From Chloroflexia bacterium (GTDB lineage Bacteria; Chloroflexota; Chloroflexia; Thermomicrobiales; CFX8), in NCBI GenBank assembly GCA_030431755.1, contig JAUIIK010000022.1, positions 1 through 49,845 of the forward strand: a stretch of 49,845 bases of DNA, read 5' to 3'. Positions 1 through 44,097 of this stretch are shown in pieces. The stretch's first letter is position 1, and the number at the start of each line of letters is the position of its first letter. The notes below the pieces were generated by a model. That model saw only the letters and a program-made list of their open reading frames with translations, had not been told where the DNA came from and did no database searches. The position numbers and the translations under genes are program-made.

Positions 1-784
1 CGACATCGCCGGCAATTGGAATCTCTGCGGGCAGGTGTGGCTCAAACTCCTCATTCCCAACCTGCGCCTGCCCGGTGATCAATTCACGTGCGAGCAAGCC
101 ACTCGTGACGTACCACGGGCTAGAGGGATCCGCGTCAGGATTGGTGAGTTCAAGCCGCCCTTTGTCGTAGTAGTTAACCGTGCGCACTCCGGCAGGAGCG
201 TCCTCATACGGCTCGGACACGATCGTCGCTACTGGAGTCGGGCCCCACATCCAGGTCCGCTCAACAATGCCCGCTTCGACAGGGAGGTCGGTACGTGACC
301 AGACGTCGTAGATCGCGGCAGCGGCACTTGGCGGCTCTGCTGCGGTGTAGAGAGGCTCCTTCGTCGCCAGAAATGCCAGGTCTCCGGCCGCGCGGTCAAT
401 GATCACGGTGCGATCGCACCAGGAGGTGTCCCAGACGCCATCCTCATCAAAATCGTAGGCATAGACGAGGTAGCTCTCCCCTTCTTGGAAATAGACACCA
501 CAAGCAGCCCCATCGGACGCAGTTTGCACGACGTGCGTCTCGCTGATTTGCCCCTTCCAGAGAGTCTCAACGGCGAAGACCGCTTGTAACTCTGTGTACA
601 GGTCATCCTCAATCAATTGGGTTTCGATCACCGTGCCCTGGAATATGAGGTCCGCGTATTCGTTGAACATGAGTTCCGGAGTCGTTTCAGCACACGAACA
701 CGCGGCGCAGGGGTTGACTTGCCAGGCAAACCCGAGCAGGGCAATCACCGGGGCGAGGAGCAAGAAACGCTGGCGGACGATCAT
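1..784 (-). CDS. Exported protein with TIMP/netrin-like N-terminus and shared WERTD/WMWGP module (3' end cut by window edge)
   Basis: The frame is open to the window edge, giving 261 residues without a stop, so the C-terminus is missing. It starts at an ATG and opens with a signal peptide (hydrophobic residues about 7-22). A cysteine-rich stretch CAACSC (26-31) then leads into EYADLIFQGTVIE (about 42-54), which resembles the N-terminus of bacterial TIMP/netrin-like proteins (Cys-x-Cys, then alanine/aspartate, then F-x-G-x-V). Cysteines at about 95 and 123 could pair with the first ones. From about residue 160 the sequence changes to a module, VWSRTDLPVE...RTWMWGP...YYDKGRLEL...WYVTSGLL...ELITGQAQVG, which recurs in the proteins at 36237-37637 and 41347-44097. 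It is probably secreted or surface-attached. The TIMP-like assignment rests on motif resemblance only. The function of the second module is unknown. Confidence 0.72.
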   Translation of the reverse strand, partial: MIVRQRFLLLAPVIALLGFAWQVNPCAACSCAETTPELMFNEYADLIFQGTVIETQLIEDDLYTELQAVFAVETLWKGQISETHVVQTASDGAACGVYFQEGESYLVYAYDFDEDGVWDTSWCDRTVIIDRAAGDLAFLATKEPLYTAAEPPSAAAAIYDVWSRTDLPVEAGIVERTWMWGPTPVATIVSEPYEDAPAGVRTVNYYDKGRLELTNPDADPSSPWYVTSGLLARELITGQAQVGNEEFEPHLPAEIPIAGDV

Positions 785-36194: not shown

Positions 36195-36238
36195 GGGCTC
36201 TCCCTCTGCTATCCCCTGTAACCTGTCACCTAACCCCT
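36195..36238 (-). repeat. Dispersed repeat, family B, copy 1
   Basis: On the minus strand it reads TAGGGGTTAGGTGACAGGTT, then ACAGGGG. It starts at the stop codon of the 36237-37637 gene. Copy 2 lies at 48569-48612 in opposite orientation. The rest of the 332-bp gap 35905-36236 holds the terminator described at 36070 and nothing else recognised. Confidence 0.65.
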
Positions 36239-37637
36239 ACTCATCGAAGGTGTCCTCAAAGACATCCCAGGCGCCGTCCGGGTCCCAGTAAAGGTCGCCG
36301 TAGAAGACCCAGATCTGGTCCTCAGCTTCGCGCGAGATCATCGCGCCATAGTTGAAGCGCTGGAACGCGCCGTTCGAGCCGGTTTCCGGCGCCAGCGCCC
36401 AGCCGAGACGCTCGCGGACTCCCGGCACATCGCGCCAGATCTTGCCGAAGCCAAACTGCGGCTGATAGAGGCCGTCCGGTGGATTGAGCGATGGATCGTC
36501 GACCGGCTGGCCGGACTCCCAGGTGTCGTCGAAGCGCTCGAAGGTGCCGTCGTCGTACATGACGATGACCGTCTGCCCTGAGTAATAGACATCCTCGATG
36601 CGGATCCAGAGCATCGCGCCGTGCTCGAACTCTTCGTAGGCGGTCGGGATCGCTATCTCACCGCCGTAGTAGGTCTCGGCGCAGCCGATGGCGGCGCGCA
36701 CCTGGTCGTTGTTCCGCCAGAGCTCGCCGAAGCCGCGGCGCGGGTCATCCGAGCATGGGTAGCTGTAGCTCTCGTGTCGCCAGGTGTAGTAGTGCAGACC
36801 GACGTTGCCCATCTCGACCTTGAAGGGGTCCGAGTTCGTCGGTGTATAGGTCAGGCAACGGCGCTCGAAGCACTGCACCATGACATCGAGCTCGGTGCCG
36901 TCGACCGTCGACTTGGTCCAGTAGGGCTCGGTCAGCGGATAGCCCATCACGAAGACCCAGTTCGCCGGTTCGACCAGCGGCTCGATCTCCTGCGTCAGGA
37001 AGGTCCAGAAGACATCCGGGACATTGTGGCCAACGTCGCCGTCGCCGCTCTCGTAAGTGACGTAGGCAGCCATCGCGCGGTCCTCGGCCGGCGAGAGATT
37101 TGCGCCGATCTCGCCCCATTGGTCGATCGTTGCCGTCACCATCTGGCCTGTGCGGTCGTCGGCGGTCTGCATATGCCGTCCTAGCGCCTGGTAGGTTGGC
37201 GTCGTCCAGCCGTAGAAGTCTCCAGCCACGGCGATCGTCGCCGGGAGCACGAAGTCGAACTGGTCGGGGTCCTGGCCGATCTGCACCCGACCGGTCATCA
37301 TCTCCCAAACCAAGCGTCCGTTGGTGACGTACCAGACACTATCGGCGTCACCGTCGGGGTTGTTGATCTCCATCCGGCTCTTATCGAAGTAGGCGACCAA
37401 TCGCTGGTTGTTGTCGAGTGGTTCGTAGGTATATGGCTCGTTCAGGATCTGGTTGGCTTGCGGCCCCCACAGCCACGAGCGGTCAACCTCCTGATTGGCG
37501 ACAGGCCGGTCCGTCCGTTCCCAGAGCGCGGCCATCGCCGGATCGAGGCCCGATTGTGCAGAAACACCAAGGCTCGTCAGGATGACGACAAGCAACATTG
37601 CCAGCGCGGCCGGTAGCCGCAGCCATCGGAAAAACAT
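36237..37637 (-). CDS. Exported protein with shared WERTD/WLWGP module and two C-terminal repeats
   Basis: A 466-residue secreted protein with a signal peptide (about 1-27). Residues 39-140 hold the shared module (LWERTDRPV, SWLWGP, YFDKSRMEINNPD, WYVTNGRLVWEMMTGRVQIG). A second conserved block follows at about 210-288 (VFWTFL, GYPLTEPYW, MVQCFERRCLTYTP, VEMGNVGLHYYTWR). It matches the NHL protein at 41347 closely and the partial protein at 1-784 in the first block. The remainder (299-466) holds two copies of a repeat, GFGELWRNNDQVRAAIG and GFGKIWRDVPGVRERLG, each followed by a GAM box. It is secreted or cell-surface; the function is unknown. Confidence 0.83.
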   Translation of the reverse strand: MFFRWLRLPAALAMLLVVILTSLGVSAQSGLDPAMAALWERTDRPVANQEVDRSWLWGPQANQILNEPYTYEPLDNNQRLVAYFDKSRMEINNPDGDADSVWYVTNGRLVWEMMTGRVQIGQDPDQFDFVLPATIAVAGDFYGWTTPTYQALGRHMQTADDRTGQMVTATIDQWGEIGANLSPAEDRAMAAYVTYESGDGDVGHNVPDVFWTFLTQEIEPLVEPANWVFVMGYPLTEPYWTKSTVDGTELDVMVQCFERRCLTYTPTNSDPFKVEMGNVGLHYYTWRHESYSYPCSDDPRRGFGELWRNNDQVRAAIGCAETYYGGEIAIPTAYEEFEHGAMLWIRIEDVYYSGQTVIVMYDDGTFERFDDTWESGQPVDDPSLNPPDGLYQPQFGFGKIWRDVPGVRERLGWALAPETGSNGAFQRFNYGAMISREAEDQIWVFYGDLYWDPDGAWDVFEDTFDE

Positions 37638-37958
37638 CGCTTCTCCTGTCTCTTACCCACCGCGCCATGGCGCGGCTACATTGTCTCCTCAGAGGTAAGA
37701 CGCCGGAACGCAGGCGCTGGTTGCGGAACTGGATAGACGGCCTTGTTGGATTGGCCATACTCTAGTGTTCAGTCACTCATGAAGCGAAGGGATTGTCCCA
37801 TCTCATCGGGCAACTCAACCGTAACGAAACTGTCATTTCTCGCTCCCACACCGCGGGTCCCCGCTCGAAATGACAGGCTCGTTGCTTGTTGAGCTATCCG
37901 GAAATCGCCAGACTATCAGTCAACTCGTGTGTCACAGACAGGGAATCTGGACCCTCAG
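37638..37958. other. Intergenic region with TGTCAT-ended palindrome
   Basis: A 321-bp gap between two minus-strand genes. The only structure seen is the palindrome at 37830-37876. The promoter for the 36237-37637 gene should lie here, but no clear elements were found. Confidence 0.5.
37830..37876. repeat. TGTCAT-ended palindromic element (47 bp)
   Basis: The sequence starts CTGTCATTTCTCGCTCCC and ends GCTCGAAATGACAG, an inverted repeat with CTGTCATTTC/GAAATGACAG ends. Its termini TGTCAT/ATGACA are the same as those of the 195/196-bp elements, which suggests a common family or common insertion mechanism. Confidence 0.6.
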
Positions 37959-40898
37959 TTAGAGATCGGTCACGAGGCCGTGCTGGAAGGCGAAGGCGCT
38001 GGCGGCGGTGCGGGAGTTGACCCCCAGCTTGTTGTAGACGGAGCGGAGGTGGCGGCCGACGGTGCGCGGGCTGATGAAGAGCTGCTCGCCAACCTCGGCG
38101 TCGGTCATGCCGCGCGCGACGAGCTGGAGGACTTCCAGCTCGCGCGGGGAAAGGCCGCCCGGCACGGCTGCGGCTGCCGGTGTGCCGGCCTTCTCGGCCT
38201 CGATGGCCTCCAGCCGCACTAGAAGAGGTTGCGTGCCAAGCCGCTCCGCCGTCGCCCGGACCTCGTCCCCGACAACGCCAGCATCCTCGGCGCGTCCTTG
38301 CCGCCGTAATAGCGCGACCCGCTCCAGTTGCACTCGCGCCGACTCGTAGGGCGCGGCGCAAGCGGTAGCGATCTGATGCGCCTGGTCGAGATGCGCGGCG
38401 GCAGCGTCGAGTTCGCCTCGTTCGAGCGCGAGGTGGCCGAGATAGCGGTGAGCTTCCAGCAGCTCCAGCGGCTGGCGCGGCTTGCCGGCGAGCTCGAGCG
38501 CTTCATTGGCATAGCGCAGCGCCAGGACGAGATCGCCACGCTCTTCGTGGATGCGCCCGCGGAGCAGGCGGCTCTCGGCCCGGTTGAGCAGCCGGCCACT
38601 CCAGTCCAGCCAGGCGTCGTGCGCGTCCAACCACTGCGTCGCCAGCGCGGTATCGCCAGACGCCAGGGCGAGCTCCACGGCGGTGCGTTGGAGCCAGAGA
38701 GCGCTGAAGAAGTAGTAGTTGCTTGGTTCCGTCGCCGCGCCCTGGGGGAGCGCCTGCTGGAGATAGCTACGGGCAGCAGTCACATCACCCCGGCGAGCGG
38801 CCAGGATACAGAGGACGCGCAACGCGTCGAAACGCATGCCGTCGAATTCGAGGTCGATCCGCGCCTGCTCCTCAGCCGTCTCCCAGTCGCCGTCGAGGAG
38901 TAGGGTGGCGTAGACCGACATGTCGGTCGCTGGGCGCGCGTCTTCCTGCGTGGACGAGGAACGGCTGCCGGGCATCTCGACCCGGTCCCAGGCAGCCAGG
39001 GCGTCCACTGCCAGACGCTTGCGGGCGTCTTTCAGATCGGCGTCGTAGGGCATCACGACATCCATCAGCTCCCAGTTGAGCAACATCCCGGTCAGGTGCG
39101 GATCGCGCAGCTGGGCGGCAATTGCCCGGCCCTGTCCGAATGCCTGCCGGGCCGCCGCCGGATCGCCACGGCCGGCAGCGGAGAGGGCCAGCGCCGAGTA
39201 GGCCCGGCTGGCGGCTTCGGACACCTCGCCGGGATGGTGGTCGAGGTAGCGGCGAGCCTCCTCATCGGCCCGTGCGTAGTGACCGTAACGGCCATAGGCC
39301 TGGGCTAGCGCGCCACCGGTCGGCACGATCATCGTGCCCTGGATACCGGGGTAGTCGCCTGCTGCGTCCAGCGCCCCGGCGACGGCGTCAACCTCGCGCA
39401 AAGCGTTATCGCCTCGTAGGCAACGGATCTGCGTCTGGCACCACAAGCCATAGAGTTCCAGGGCATCGTCGCCGGACTCCCGCGCCAGGCGCATCGCCCG
39501 CTCGCTATAGCCGAGCCCGCGGTCGGCGTCAGCAAAACGAAAGGTCATCGCCAGATCGCAGAGCAACCAACCCTGCTCGGCCGCCGGGAGCTCCCCTTCG
39601 CCAAGGATATTCAGCGCCTGCTCGAAGCGTTGCGCCGCCATCTCATAGGCGAAGCTCTTGACCGCCCGCCGGCCGGCGTCGATCAGCCAGCGGCCGGCGC
39701 GGGCATCGCCGGCCAACTGGTAATGGTGGGCGACGATGTCGGGGTCGGGGCTTGTGCCATCTTCCAGGTGCCTGCCGACCCGCCCGTGCCAGGCCCGGCG
39801 GCGCGGCAGGCTCAGGCGGTTGTAGAGTGTCGCCCGGAAGAGCGCGTGGTTGAAGCGGTAGCCATTGCCGCTCGGCAGCTCTCGCAGGATACCGATCTCC
39901 TCGGAGACTTCGATCACGTCGATCAACGCCGCCTCGTCAACCGCTGCCAGCTCCGTCCAGAGATCCAGCGACACCTCGTCGCCGATTACTGTCGCAACTT
40001 GCAGCACCTCAACCTGCTTCGGAGTCAGCCGCTCCAGCCGTTGATCGACGAACTGCCGAACCAGCAGGGGTACCTGGACCGATCCGAGGTCTTGTAGCTT
40101 CCAACCATCATCCTGCTGCTGCAGCGTCCCATCGGCTTCCAGGTTGAAGAGCAGCTCGATGGTGAAGAAGGGGATGCCCTCGCCGTGCTGGTAGAGCCAG
40201 GCCGCCAGCTGTTGTTGTGCTCCGGCGTCCTCCATTGGGTATCGCGCCGCAACCAACCCGACGACCGCGTCGGCGTCGATCTGGCGCAGCTCGATGCGCG
40301 TTGCCCGCGAGTCGCGCACCAGCCCCGGCAGCCGGCTATAGAGCGGGATGCCGCTGGTGACTTCGATATCGCGGTAGGAGCCGATAAGCAGCACTGGCAG
40401 GTGATCGATACTGATGGCGAGGTGGTGCAGCAACTCCAGGCTGGCGTCATCGGACCAGTGCAGATCCTCCAGCACGATGATGACCGGGCGCTCTGCCGCT
40501 AGCCGGGTGACGAAGGCGAGGACATCAGCGAATAGCTCACCCCGGCCAGTGGCTTGCGCCGGATCTGTGTCGCCTGAGAGCGCGGCCGGCAGCTCGATCT
40601 CCTGCCCGACTTGCGCCGACCGCCGATGAGCCGCGAAGAGGTCGGCCCAGAGGCTGAATGGTGGGCTTGTCATAAGCTCGCGGCTGGCGGCTATGAAGAT
40701 CGCCGCGCCGGGAGCGTCGGTCGCCAGCGCGTGCTCGATCAACGCCGTCTTCCCGATGCCGGCCTCGCCGCTCACCAGCACGAGCTTGCCGGCCCCAGCG
40801 CGCGCGTCGCTCATCGCACCCCGGAGCGCCGCGAGCTCACGTTCGCGGCCGAAGAGCGGTTCGGTATCGCTGTGAGTTGTCTGCATCGTCGTCTTCAT
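37959..40898 (-). CDS. LuxR-family STAND ATPase regulator (second copy)
   Basis: A 979-residue regulator if started at ATG 40898; the frame runs 75 nt further upstream. Residues 16-50 are FGRERELAALRGAM and a Walker A GEAGIGKT (44-51). Walker B lies in VIIVLEDLHWSDDASL (about 145-160). The middle is an extensive helical TPR-like region, and the C-terminus (916-979) is a LuxR HTH, LSPRELEVLQLVARGMTDAE, then RTVGRHLRSVYNKLGVNSRT. It should bind DNA as an oligomer when activated by an unknown ligand. The adjacent NHL gene is divergently oriented and could be a target. It is not closely related in its first domains to the regulator at 14269. Confidence 0.9.
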   Translation of the reverse strand: MKTTMQTTHSDTEPLFGRERELAALRGAMSDARAGAGKLVLVSGEAGIGKTALIEHALATDAPGAAIFIAASRELMTSPPFSLWADLFAAHRRSAQVGQEIELPAALSGDTDPAQATGRGELFADVLAFVTRLAAERPVIIVLEDLHWSDDASLELLHHLAISIDHLPVLLIGSYRDIEVTSGIPLYSRLPGLVRDSRATRIELRQIDADAVVGLVAARYPMEDAGAQQQLAAWLYQHGEGIPFFTIELLFNLEADGTLQQQDDGWKLQDLGSVQVPLLVRQFVDQRLERLTPKQVEVLQVATVIGDEVSLDLWTELAAVDEAALIDVIEVSEEIGILRELPSGNGYRFNHALFRATLYNRLSLPRRRAWHGRVGRHLEDGTSPDPDIVAHHYQLAGDARAGRWLIDAGRRAVKSFAYEMAAQRFEQALNILGEGELPAAEQGWLLCDLAMTFRFADADRGLGYSERAMRLARESGDDALELYGLWCQTQIRCLRGDNALREVDAVAGALDAAGDYPGIQGTMIVPTGGALAQAYGRYGHYARADEEARRYLDHHPGEVSEAASRAYSALALSAAGRGDPAAARQAFGQGRAIAAQLRDPHLTGMLLNWELMDVVMPYDADLKDARKRLAVDALAAWDRVEMPGSRSSSTQEDARPATDMSVYATLLLDGDWETAEEQARIDLEFDGMRFDALRVLCILAARRGDVTAARSYLQQALPQGAATEPSNYYFFSALWLQRTAVELALASGDTALATQWLDAHDAWLDWSGRLLNRAESRLLRGRIHEERGDLVLALRYANEALELAGKPRQPLELLEAHRYLGHLALERGELDAAAAHLDQAHQIATACAAPYESARVQLERVALLRRQGRAEDAGVVGDEVRATAERLGTQPLLVRLEAIEAEKAGTPAAAAVPGGLSPRELEVLQLVARGMTDAEVGEQLFISPRTVGRHLRSVYNKLGVNSRTAASAFAFQHGLVTDL

Positions 40899-41101
40899 AC
40901 CCGCCAGTATGCCCGCTGTCAGATCGCGCGAGACATTGAGATGGCCCGGCGATGCTCTATCGAGAAACCACAATGAGTAGTTCGTCTCATCCTAGCGCGA
41001 ATCGAAATACGCATTCCTCTCCTGTTCGGTAAAGCGCGGTTGATCCATCCTCTTGAACAGCGGTCGCAACGGCGCGGCCGGCAGCGTTCGACGAGGAGGT
41101 C

Positions 41102-41275
41102 ATGATGAACGCAGGGATTCACCAGCAACCGGTAACGAACAGGCAGACGCGGCGCGCGACCCGGACGGTCACGCTGGTCTGGGGCCGCGGACCGGACAGG
41201 ACGCTCCGTGCCCACTGGCTCGACGGCCCGGAGCTGGTAACTCGCGGGAGCCGCCAACGGGCGCTCGCGACCTGA
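41102..41275 (+). CDS. Small basic protein, 57 residues
   Basis: Two ATG codons at 41102 and the codon after it follow GAGGAGGT five nt upstream, an excellent ribosome-binding site. The frame gives a highly basic peptide (MMNAGIHQQPVTNRQTRRAT, with many Arg) and stops at 41275. It is followed by a perfect 10-bp hairpin and then a second strong AGGAGG in front of the NHL gene. It could be a leader peptide for the NHL gene, or a short protein. No family was recognised. The ribosome-binding site is the main evidence. Confidence 0.45.
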   Translation: MMNAGIHQQPVTNRQTRRATRTVTLVWGRGPDRTLRAHWLDGPELVTRGSRQRALAT

Positions 41276-41297
41276 CACGGTTTCAAAGTCAGCAGAC

Positions 41298-41321
41298 GGC
41301 CGCGCCAACGCTGGCGCGGCC
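41298..41321 (+). terminator. Perfect hairpin between small ORF and NHL gene
   Basis: GGCCGCGCCA, a 4-nt loop ACGC, then TGGCGCGGCC. It is a perfect 10-bp stem of pure G-C and one A-T pair. No T-run follows, so it may be an attenuator, an mRNA stabiliser, or an element affecting NHL translation, whose ribosome-binding site begins about 12 nt later. Confidence 0.5.
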
Positions 41322-41346
41322 GCCACGCTACGAGGAGGTAGCCACG

Positions 41347-44097
41347 ATGTCGATTCGATTGACTGATCCACCAGGCTCAGCAGGATTTCCCAAGCGCCGG
41401 TCGCCACGGCCGGACCTGTTCATCGGGAGCGCGCGCAGGTTCGCCGGCATCGCCGGTTTGACGCTGGTGCTGCTGGTGACGATGTTCTATCAGGCCTTGG
41501 CGGCCGCGCCGGTTGGCGACGCCTTCCAACGCACCTGGGAGCGCCCCGATGAGCCCGTGCGCTCCGGCCAGGTCTCGCGCACCTGGATGTGGGGGCCGGA
41601 GGCGTTCACGAACGCGCTGCAGGAGAGCTATGGCGAAGCGCCGGATGGCCGGCGCGCCGTCCAGTACTTCGACAAAGCCCGCATGGAAGACAACGGCTTC
41701 CGGGCCGCCGAACCCTGGGACATCACCAATGGCCTGCTCGTTGTCGAGCTGATGACCGGGCAAATGCAGGTGGGCGACGGCCAGTTCGAACAGCGCGAGC
41801 CGGCACTGGTCAATGTCGCCGGCGACGCCGACGACCTCGGCGGCCCGGCCTACATGACGATGGGGCGGGTCAGCGATGAGCCTGGCCGCGACGAGGGCAG
41901 CCAGATCATCGAGCGGCTCGACCGCTCCGGGAAGCTCAATCTGGACGAGAGCCTTGCCGGCCAGGGCGTGACGGCGGCCCACTACGTGCACGCGACAGGT
42001 CACACGGTCGCATCGCCCTTCTGGACCTTCATGAATAGCAGCGATCTCGTCTACGTCGACGGGCAGCTGCAGCAGGCGCAGCTCTTCTCCGACCCGTTCT
42101 ACGCCACCGGCCTACCGGTGACGGAGGCCTACTGGGCTGAAGTGAAGGTCGGCGGCGTCTACAAGGATGTCCTGATGCAATGCTTCGAGCGCCGCTGCCT
42201 GACCTATACCCCGGACAACTCCGAGGGCTGGCAGGTCGAGGCCGGCAATGTCGGCCGCCACTACTACGCCTGGCGCTATGGCGCAGACGGTGGTGAGCAG
42301 CCGACGCCGGAACCAACCCCGGATCCGTCGTCGACGCCGGGCCCAGACCCCTCGCCGACCCCGGAACCCGATCCATCGCCAACGCCTGAGCCGACACCAG
42401 ACCCGACGACGGAACCGCTGCCCGAGCCGGTGCTGGAGTACACCCTGGCGGCAGCGCTCGGCGGTGACCAGGAGCGGATCAACGCCTTCGACAAACCCTA
42501 CGGCGTCGCCATAACCACGGACGGCACGATCCTCGTCGCCGACAAGGGCAGCGAGCGCATCCAGGAATTCTCAGCTGCTGGCTTCTCGCTCGGCGGCTAT
42601 GGCGGTGATGGCGAGGTGCCCGATCCCGTCGATATGCCGGAGGATATCGAGATCGACGCCGAGGGCCGTATCTGGGTGCTCGACCGCGGCAACAGCCGGA
42701 TCGTGCGGCTCGACGAGAACGGCGCGGTTGTCAAGGCTATCGGCCAGGTCGGCAAGCCGAATCTACGGCTGCGCGATCCCTCCGGCTTCACGATCGGCCC
42801 GGATGGTAACTTTTACGTCGCCGATACCGCCAACAAGCGCGTCAAGGTCTACAAACCGGACGGCAACTTCCTGATGGTCGTCGGTGAACCCGGCAACGGC
42901 GACGGCCAGTTCCAGCAGCCGTCCGATGTCGCGGTCCACGACAGCGGCAATATCTTCGTCGCCGACCAGGAGACGAGCCGCATTCACATGTTCGGCCCGG
43001 ATGGCGCGTTCATCTTCGCCTGGGACGTTGCGGGCTCCGGCGAAGAGGAGATCATGTTCCCAACCGCGCTGGAGATCGACGAGGTTGGGCGGCTTTACAT
43101 CGCCGATCTGGGCAACAGCCGGGTGCAGGTCTTCACGACCGACGCCGAGTACATCCGCACCATCGGAGCCGAGGGCACTGAACCGGGGCAGCTCCGGGGT
43201 CCGGTCGATATCGTCGCCGACAACGCCGGCTACGTCTACATCGTCGGGCGCGACGACCGCTACGTCCACAAGTTCACCGACGGTGGCGAGTTCGTCGACC
43301 GTTGGAGCGGCGACCAGCGCGCGAACTTCGAGCGCGCAAAGGGGGTCGACGTCGATGACGCGGGACGCATCTATGTCACCGACGATGCCGATCCGGCGAT
43401 CCAGATCTTCGACGCGGCAGGAGAGTTTGTCGATCTCTGGGCCAACGAGGAGCTTGACTCTCCCCGCGATGTCGCGCTTGCCGGCGAGTTCGCCTACGTC
43501 GTCAACCGCAATAGCGTCGTGAAGCTCACCATCGCCGGCGAAGTCGTCACCAGCTGGGGCAGCCCCGGCACAGGCGACGGCGAGCTGAACGAAGCGAGCG
43601 GCATCGACGTCGATGGCCAGGGTAATGTCTACATCACCGACCTGGGCAACTATCGCGTCCAGAAGTTCGACGCCGACGGCGCGTTCATCACCGCCTGGGG
43701 CGAGCTGGGTGTTGATCCGGGCGAGTTCACTACGCCTTACGCGATCGCGGTACATGGCGATGAGGTCTTTGTGCTGGACCCCTATCTCTACCGGGTGCAG
43801 GTCTTCGACCTTGACGGGAACTACCTGCGCGGTTGGGAGACGATGAGCACGACGTTCTTGAACTTCGGCATCGCTGTCGATAGCGACGGGTATGTCTACC
43901 TGACCCGCTCCGACCTCGTCGCGCTGGTCGACAAGTTCACCCCGACCGGCGAGCTCGTCACGACGGTCGACCGGCCCGATCCGGGTCCGCTCGGCCCCGA
44001 CGCCCGCGCATCCGGCGTCGCCGTCACCGATCAGAACACGATCTACCTGACGACCGACAGCCCCAGCCGTCTGGTGGTGCTGACCGCCGTCGAGTAG
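41347..44097 (+). CDS. Exported NHL-repeat protein with shared module and Pro/Thr linker
   Basis: A 916-residue protein, started at ATG 41347 because AGGAGG precedes it; the frame is open for 98 codons upstream but looks non-coding. A membrane-anchor or signal segment lies at about 33-56. The shared module occupies about 60-310 (RTWERPDEPV, RTWMWGP, YFDKARMEDN, DVLMQCFERRCLTYTPDNSE, GNVGRHYYAWR). A Pro/Thr/Asp-rich linker (about 318-362, PTPEPTPDP repeats) leads to two NHL-type beta-propellers (about 365-916, for example GRIWVLDRGNSRIVRLDENG and GNVYITDLGNYRVQKFDADG). The propellers should be outside the cell. A surface scaffold or ligand-binding protein is likely. Confidence 0.87.
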   Translation: MSIRLTDPPGSAGFPKRRSPRPDLFIGSARRFAGIAGLTLVLLVTMFYQALAAAPVGDAFQRTWERPDEPVRSGQVSRTWMWGPEAFTNALQESYGEAPDGRRAVQYFDKARMEDNGFRAAEPWDITNGLLVVELMTGQMQVGDGQFEQREPALVNVAGDADDLGGPAYMTMGRVSDEPGRDEGSQIIERLDRSGKLNLDESLAGQGVTAAHYVHATGHTVASPFWTFMNSSDLVYVDGQLQQAQLFSDPFYATGLPVTEAYWAEVKVGGVYKDVLMQCFERRCLTYTPDNSEGWQVEAGNVGRHYYAWRYGADGGEQPTPEPTPDPSSTPGPDPSPTPEPDPSPTPEPTPDPTTEPLPEPVLEYTLAAALGGDQERINAFDKPYGVAITTDGTILVADKGSERIQEFSAAGFSLGGYGGDGEVPDPVDMPEDIEIDAEGRIWVLDRGNSRIVRLDENGAVVKAIGQVGKPNLRLRDPSGFTIGPDGNFYVADTANKRVKVYKPDGNFLMVVGEPGNGDGQFQQPSDVAVHDSGNIFVADQETSRIHMFGPDGAFIFAWDVAGSGEEEIMFPTALEIDEVGRLYIADLGNSRVQVFTTDAEYIRTIGAEGTEPGQLRGPVDIVADNAGYVYIVGRDDRYVHKFTDGGEFVDRWSGDQRANFERAKGVDVDDAGRIYVTDDADPAIQIFDAAGEFVDLWANEELDSPRDVALAGEFAYVVNRNSVVKLTIAGEVVTSWGSPGTGDGELNEASGIDVDGQGNVYITDLGNYRVQKFDADGAFITAWGELGVDPGEFTTPYAIAVHGDEVFVLDPYLYRVQVFDLDGNYLRGWETMSTTFLNFGIAVDSDGYVYLTRSDLVALVDKFTPTGELVTTVDRPDPGPLGPDARASGVAVTDQNTIYLTTDSPSRLVVLTAVE

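Follow-up and report, generated by a model that had tools for sequence, protein, structure and literature searches.

A two-repeat module of exported Chloroflexota proteins related to LGFP repeats and its probable role in cell-wall retention

The sequence pattern shared by three exported proteins of this Chloroflexia bacterium represents a genuine module of ~255 aa that has not yet been named. Profile comparisons indicate that the module is composed of two diverged copies of a ~90-aa repeat, with an extra ~50 aa between them. This repeat has no database name and is designated FGYP here. At the sequence-profile level, FGYP repeats are in turn related to the LGFP repeats of Pfam (PF08310). The module is massively expanded in Thermomicrobiales and almost wholly confined to one class of Chloroflexota. 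It probably serves as a non-covalent cell-wall retention domain, which displays diverse partners at the surface. Chloroflexota envelopes are unusual. The module, which reaches ~50 copies in a genome, and the phylum-wide FGYP repeat are concrete candidates for the anchor that keeps exported proteins on the cell. If this is true, hundreds of exported proteins annotated as "hypothetical" could be labeled as wall-bound, and the module could be used as a display tag in thermophiles.

The module in the window and in the genome

The window, the whole stretch of 49,845 nucleotides analyzed here, is the complete contig C197 of a 5.1-Mb genome. The module was found in all three of the following proteins.

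2–784, minus strand: P0003, N-terminal 261 aa; signal peptide, Cys-rich region, and module N-half (HMM 153 bits, model positions 3–104); clipped by the contig end
36237–37637, minus strand: P0002, 466 aa; signal peptide, module, and two GFGxxWR repeats
36774–37538, minus strand: module copy in P0002, 255 positions; the more divergent copy of the window (HMM 300.7 bits; tblastn E = 2e-51 to P0001)
41347–44097, plus strand: P0001, 916 aa; signal peptide, module, Pro/Thr linker, and NHL propeller
41521–42279, plus strand: module copy in P0001 (HMM 397.6 bits)

The initial annotation described a motif pattern common to the three proteins, and every named motif was located. They are WERPDEPV, WMWGP, YFDKARME, WDITNGL, TGQMQVG, CFERRCLTYTP, and GNVGRHYYAWRY in P0001; WERTDRPV, WLWGP, YFDKSRME, WYVTNGR, TGRVQIG, CFERRCLTYTP, and GNVGLHYYTWRH in P0002; and WSRTDLPV, WMWGP, YYDKGRLE, WYVTSGL, and TGQAQVG in P0003. 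The tblastn alignments of P0001 with P0002 (40% identity, E = 2e-51) and with P0003 (44% identity, E = 6e-25) are significant and far above chance. The second block, FERRCLTYTP and GNVGxHYYxWR, is confirmed in P0001 and P0002. It is missing in P0003 because this protein runs past the contig end; the block is clipped, not truly absent. The architecture of P0001, in which a Pro/Thr linker and an NHL propeller follow the module, also holds, and so does the pair of GFGxxWR repeats in P0002: these are ~85 aa each and resemble each other (E about 1e-4). The TIMP-like N-terminus proposed for P0003 is unproven; the region is Cys-rich and weakly TIMP-like (E = 0.08), below the Pfam cut-off. The location of P0002 and P0003 on the minus strand is a correction.

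The GFGxxWR repeats of P0002 were also considered as relatives of FGYP, and the comparison gave no support. Their match to LGFP is weak (Pfam E = 0.068; hhalign probability 18.5). A large AAA/TPR/LuxR-type regulator, MalT-like, is encoded between the two module genes (37959–40973, minus strand).

All three copies reported in 50 kb are real, but the true number is larger. When distinct places are counted, this genome contains 50 module copies, 48 complete and 2 clipped by contig ends. The initial annotation was based on the window alone, so the genome-wide copy number was invisible to it. The module boundaries (255 positions) come from iterated HMM searches of the loci of this genome, and the median pairwise identity among the copies is 52%.

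No named domain corresponds to the module, as had been suspected. The Pfam search of 81 module members yielded no meaningful match (best E = 0.07, to unrelated families), NCBIfam has no model for the module part, and searches of PDB sequences with the module and FGYP profiles gave chance matches only. A description of the module was not found in the literature searched, whose coverage excludes most subscription journals. The view of a distinct extracytoplasmic module thus agrees with its lack of Pfam and NCBIfam matches, its many partners, and its near restriction to one Chloroflexota class.

Structure prediction with AlphaFold2 gave a confident model of the module of P0001 (positions 41503–42288; pLDDT 92.4, pTM 0.90) and no close match in PDB. 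Foldseek returned no match with E < 0.1 in PDB or in the BFVD viral library (best E = 0.29). Weak Foldseek matches to propellers were discarded.

Relationship to FGYP and LGFP repeats

The FGYP repeat is defined by matches to only the C-half of the module, which occur twice in L045, L049, and L050. Two profiles were used: A3, with ~88 positions, and A4, which contains no module rows. FGYP repeats occur mostly in pairs and, like the module, are sited beside the signal peptide or at the C-terminus. In this genome (G000), about 20 more proteins have plain FGYP repeats, mostly paired, without the full module; examples are C172:50645-51190 and C247:4154-4699.

The FGYP pair is homologous to both module halves, in register. 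In hhalign comparisons, whose E-values refer to single comparisons, the whole module aligned with the FGYP pair over 152 columns with a probability of 98.5 and E = 1.9e-15, the N-half falling on repeat 1 and the C-half on repeat 2. Compared singly with the pair, the C-half gave a probability of 98.2 and the N-half 92. The A4 profile still detects module C-halves in the genome with E down to 4e-9. The direct comparison between the N-half and the C-half failed (hhalign probability 0.1), and thus the internal duplication is visible only via the FGYP intermediate. The module differs from the FGYP pair in the ~50-aa insert between the halves and in the WxWGP and DKxRME signatures. The idea of a stand-alone family is therefore not retained; the module is better described as a diverged form, with two repeats, of an LGFP-related repeat family that spans the phylum.

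The relationship to LGFP is seen most clearly in the FGYP repeats, which matched Pfam-LGFP-positive Chloroflexota repeats with hhalign probabilities of 99.4–99.5. The C-half of the module also matched them (probability 96, E = 3.4e-9), although this comparison is not fully independent, as the LGFP-positive set was excised with the FGYP profile. The N-half alone was not detected in the same comparison (probability 1.4). None of the 81 module members passed the Pfam LGFP cut-off, and the FGYP proteins L045, L049, and L050 have no Pfam LGFP match either.

The C-terminal LGFP domain of mycoloyltransferase A (MytA) from Corynebacterium glutamicum (6swz) is the only reported LGFP structure, and its unit is a helix with three to four strands (PMC11299179). 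Among PDB entries, the FGYP-pair model (pLDDT 88.9, pTM 0.84) matches this domain best, with a probability of 0.93 and E = 7.4e-3; the other listed PDB matches have probabilities of at most 0.12. The overall fit is poor (TM 0.31), and the match is therefore support, not proof. 6swz is absent among the 50 matches listed for the module model. In the predicted models, the FGYP repeat has helices at 18–31 and 78–86 and strands at 39–42, 49–55, 59–62, and 73–75. The N-half of the module is predicted to have helices at 4–20 and 79–85 and strands at 39–42, 50–56, and 60–63, tracking the FGYP repeat almost position by position. By the order of the predicted elements, both fit the LGFP unit of one helix and three to four antiparallel strands.

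LGFP repeats of the Corynebacterium MytA/PS1 C-terminal domain share with the module a helix and short antiparallel strands per repeat, a Gly-x-Pro core, and their occurrence in exported proteins. They differ in being tandem repeats of ~54 aa, whereas the module consists of two diverged halves and an insert. The hosts also differ. Corynebacterium has a mycolate-arabinogalactan wall, while the phylum carrying the module is not known for such a wall. The LGFP domains of MytA bind peptidoglycan-arabinogalactan, according to PMC11299179, which cites Dietrich et al. 2020.

Distribution in Chloroflexota and on viral contigs

Four families of the order (f1, f2, f4, and f5) have from 4 to at least 44 module copies per genome, except for a single genome of 54% completeness in which there is no copy. 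In the family f3 (G006, G010, and others), no module was found, one weak match aside. The f3 genomes keep a few FGYP repeats, which may reflect either loss of the module or a different wall.

Among 301 Chloroflexota genomes, nearly every sampled member of the class has the module. Outside the class, matches are weak and mostly partial, with one stronger exception (G122, E = 4.5e-47). The expected restriction to Chloroflexota thus extends, G122 excepted, to nearly one class only; the contig-wide scan, of which the best 79 loci are listed, leaves room for carriers in other phyla. Named carriers include Thermomicrobium, Thermalbibacter, Sphaerobacter, and Ca. Chlorohelix, and the module is present in the type strain Thermomicrobium roseum (T. 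roseum DSM 5159), where WP_012642611.1 (TRD_RS15170) joins it to a thermonuclease. Chloroflexia is used here as the class name in the GTDB sense; Thermomicrobium is now placed under Thermomicrobiota in NCBI.

In contrast to the module, the FGYP repeat is phylum-wide. The A3 profile matched 105 of 201 Chloroflexota genomes and, at the order level, every one of the 51 genomes searched, among them those of f3. A3 also catches module C-halves, and the counts of FGYP and module are mixed in this class.

FGYP repeats are also encoded on viral contigs. Eleven of the 16 loci, L198 and L201 among them, encode Amidase_2 or Amidase_3, several with glucosaminidase; L195 and L196 are counted here by their near identity to L194. 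Each of these 11 peptidoglycan amidases has one FGYP repeat, at the C-terminus. This is where endolysins carry their wall-binding domain, and LGFP is listed as a putative one (PMC3314691, PMC8310338). L213 belongs to a phage that has genes for a tape measure protein, an endolysin, and an integrase and that also encodes a module-nuclease-Excalibur protein. The FGYP pair had no match in annotated phages.

Proposed wall retention and alternative functions

The set for architecture analysis comprises 50 module reading frames, one of which is a duplicate fragment. The module directly follows a signal-peptide-like segment in 32 of them, is C-terminal to the partner domain in about nine, and is mid-protein in some. 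L035 (305 aa) is almost free-standing, consisting of a signal peptide and the module alone. About 20 unrelated Pfam families are fused to the module: NHL, PD40, Kelch, pentapeptide, CAP, trypsin, subtilase, clostripain, S11 D,D-carboxypeptidase, beta-lactamase2, sulfatase, GSDH (glucose/sorbosone dehydrogenase), LTD, Germane, BP74_N, CHRD, BACON, DUF192, and Stig1, with SLT as a weak match. On the module tree (48 rows, 32 with a partner label, and many inner branches weakly supported), placing the 15 label states takes 16 changes, compared with a shuffle mean of 23; none of 500 shuffles is as low. This indicates that most fusions were passed on together with the module and that some partners were swapped.

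Screening of the module proteins with simple rules for hydropathy and sequence patterns revealed no second membrane anchor at a terminus, no lipobox at the signal peptide, and no credible LPXTG. The only hydrophobic segment after the module is one stretch inside a clostripain domain. SLH (PF00395) is absent from the whole genome and from the module proteins scanned. The genome has three sortases, and therefore another anchoring route exists.

Several lines of evidence point to wall retention: the ~50 copies, located mostly after a signal peptide and without a second recognizable anchor; the many unrelated partners; the relationship of each half to FGYP, and of FGYP to LGFP; the best match of the FGYP-pair model to the wall-binding domain of MytA; the single C-terminal repeat of viral amidases; and the absence of SLH. 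The protein would be exported by Sec and its signal peptide cleaved. The two LGFP/FGYP-like halves would then bind a polymer of the Chloroflexia wall, either peptidoglycan or an attached polysaccharide, probably non-covalently, and so keep whatever is fused to them (a protease, propeller, nuclease, D,D-carboxypeptidase, etc.) at the surface. Non-covalent retention of diverse exported proteins is also the role of SLH, LysM, and other wall-anchoring modules, but no sequence relation between these and the module was found, and SLH is missing here.

The surface location, the ~50-copy expansion, the divergence from FGYP, and the aromatic-rich conserved positions would also suit an adhesin or carbohydrate-binding module whose target is not the cell's own wall but extracellular polysaccharide, biofilm matrix, or other cells. 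We consider this unlikely, as some partners (S11 D,D-carboxypeptidase and, weakly, SLT) are expected to act on the cell's own wall and the related FGYP repeat is found on phage-borne amidases, which must bind the host wall. These amidases also argue against a sorting signal for a dedicated export or attachment machine, comparable to the C-terminal domains of type 9 secretion. Such a signal could explain a single module across many cargoes with almost no other anchor, but the module is found at either cargo end (32 N-terminal and about nine C-terminal), a poor fit to known sorting signals, and this function is quite improbable. The mostly N-terminal position right behind the signal peptide is what a pro-domain or folding helper would show, if it assisted the maturation of exported cargo and were later removed. 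This is very improbable given the C-terminal copies, the nearly solitary module of L035, and cargo that is not mainly protease.

With wall retention as the preferred function, the ligand may have changed, as much of the FGYP consensus is gone from the module. T. roseum has an atypical wall, reported to be protein-dominated with little peptidoglycan, and cross-linking of the wall proteins is a guess so far (PMC2615216); the ligand of the module may therefore be unusual too. A more speculative extension, which we regard as possible but doubtful, is that the class Chloroflexia displays its surface proteins mainly through this module, bound to a class-specific wall polymer. The diverged WxWGP/DKxRME half and the insert would then form a new ligand site, evolved with the protein-dominated, galactosamine-containing wall reported for Thermomicrobium.

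Fusions to nucleases occur outside the window. Five loci on viral contigs (L207, L208, L209, L210, and L211) combine the module with staphylococcal-nuclease-like and Excalibur-like domains, identified by Pfam for L210 and by eye for the rest. The megaplasmid of T. roseum carries a module-thermonuclease gene (L218).
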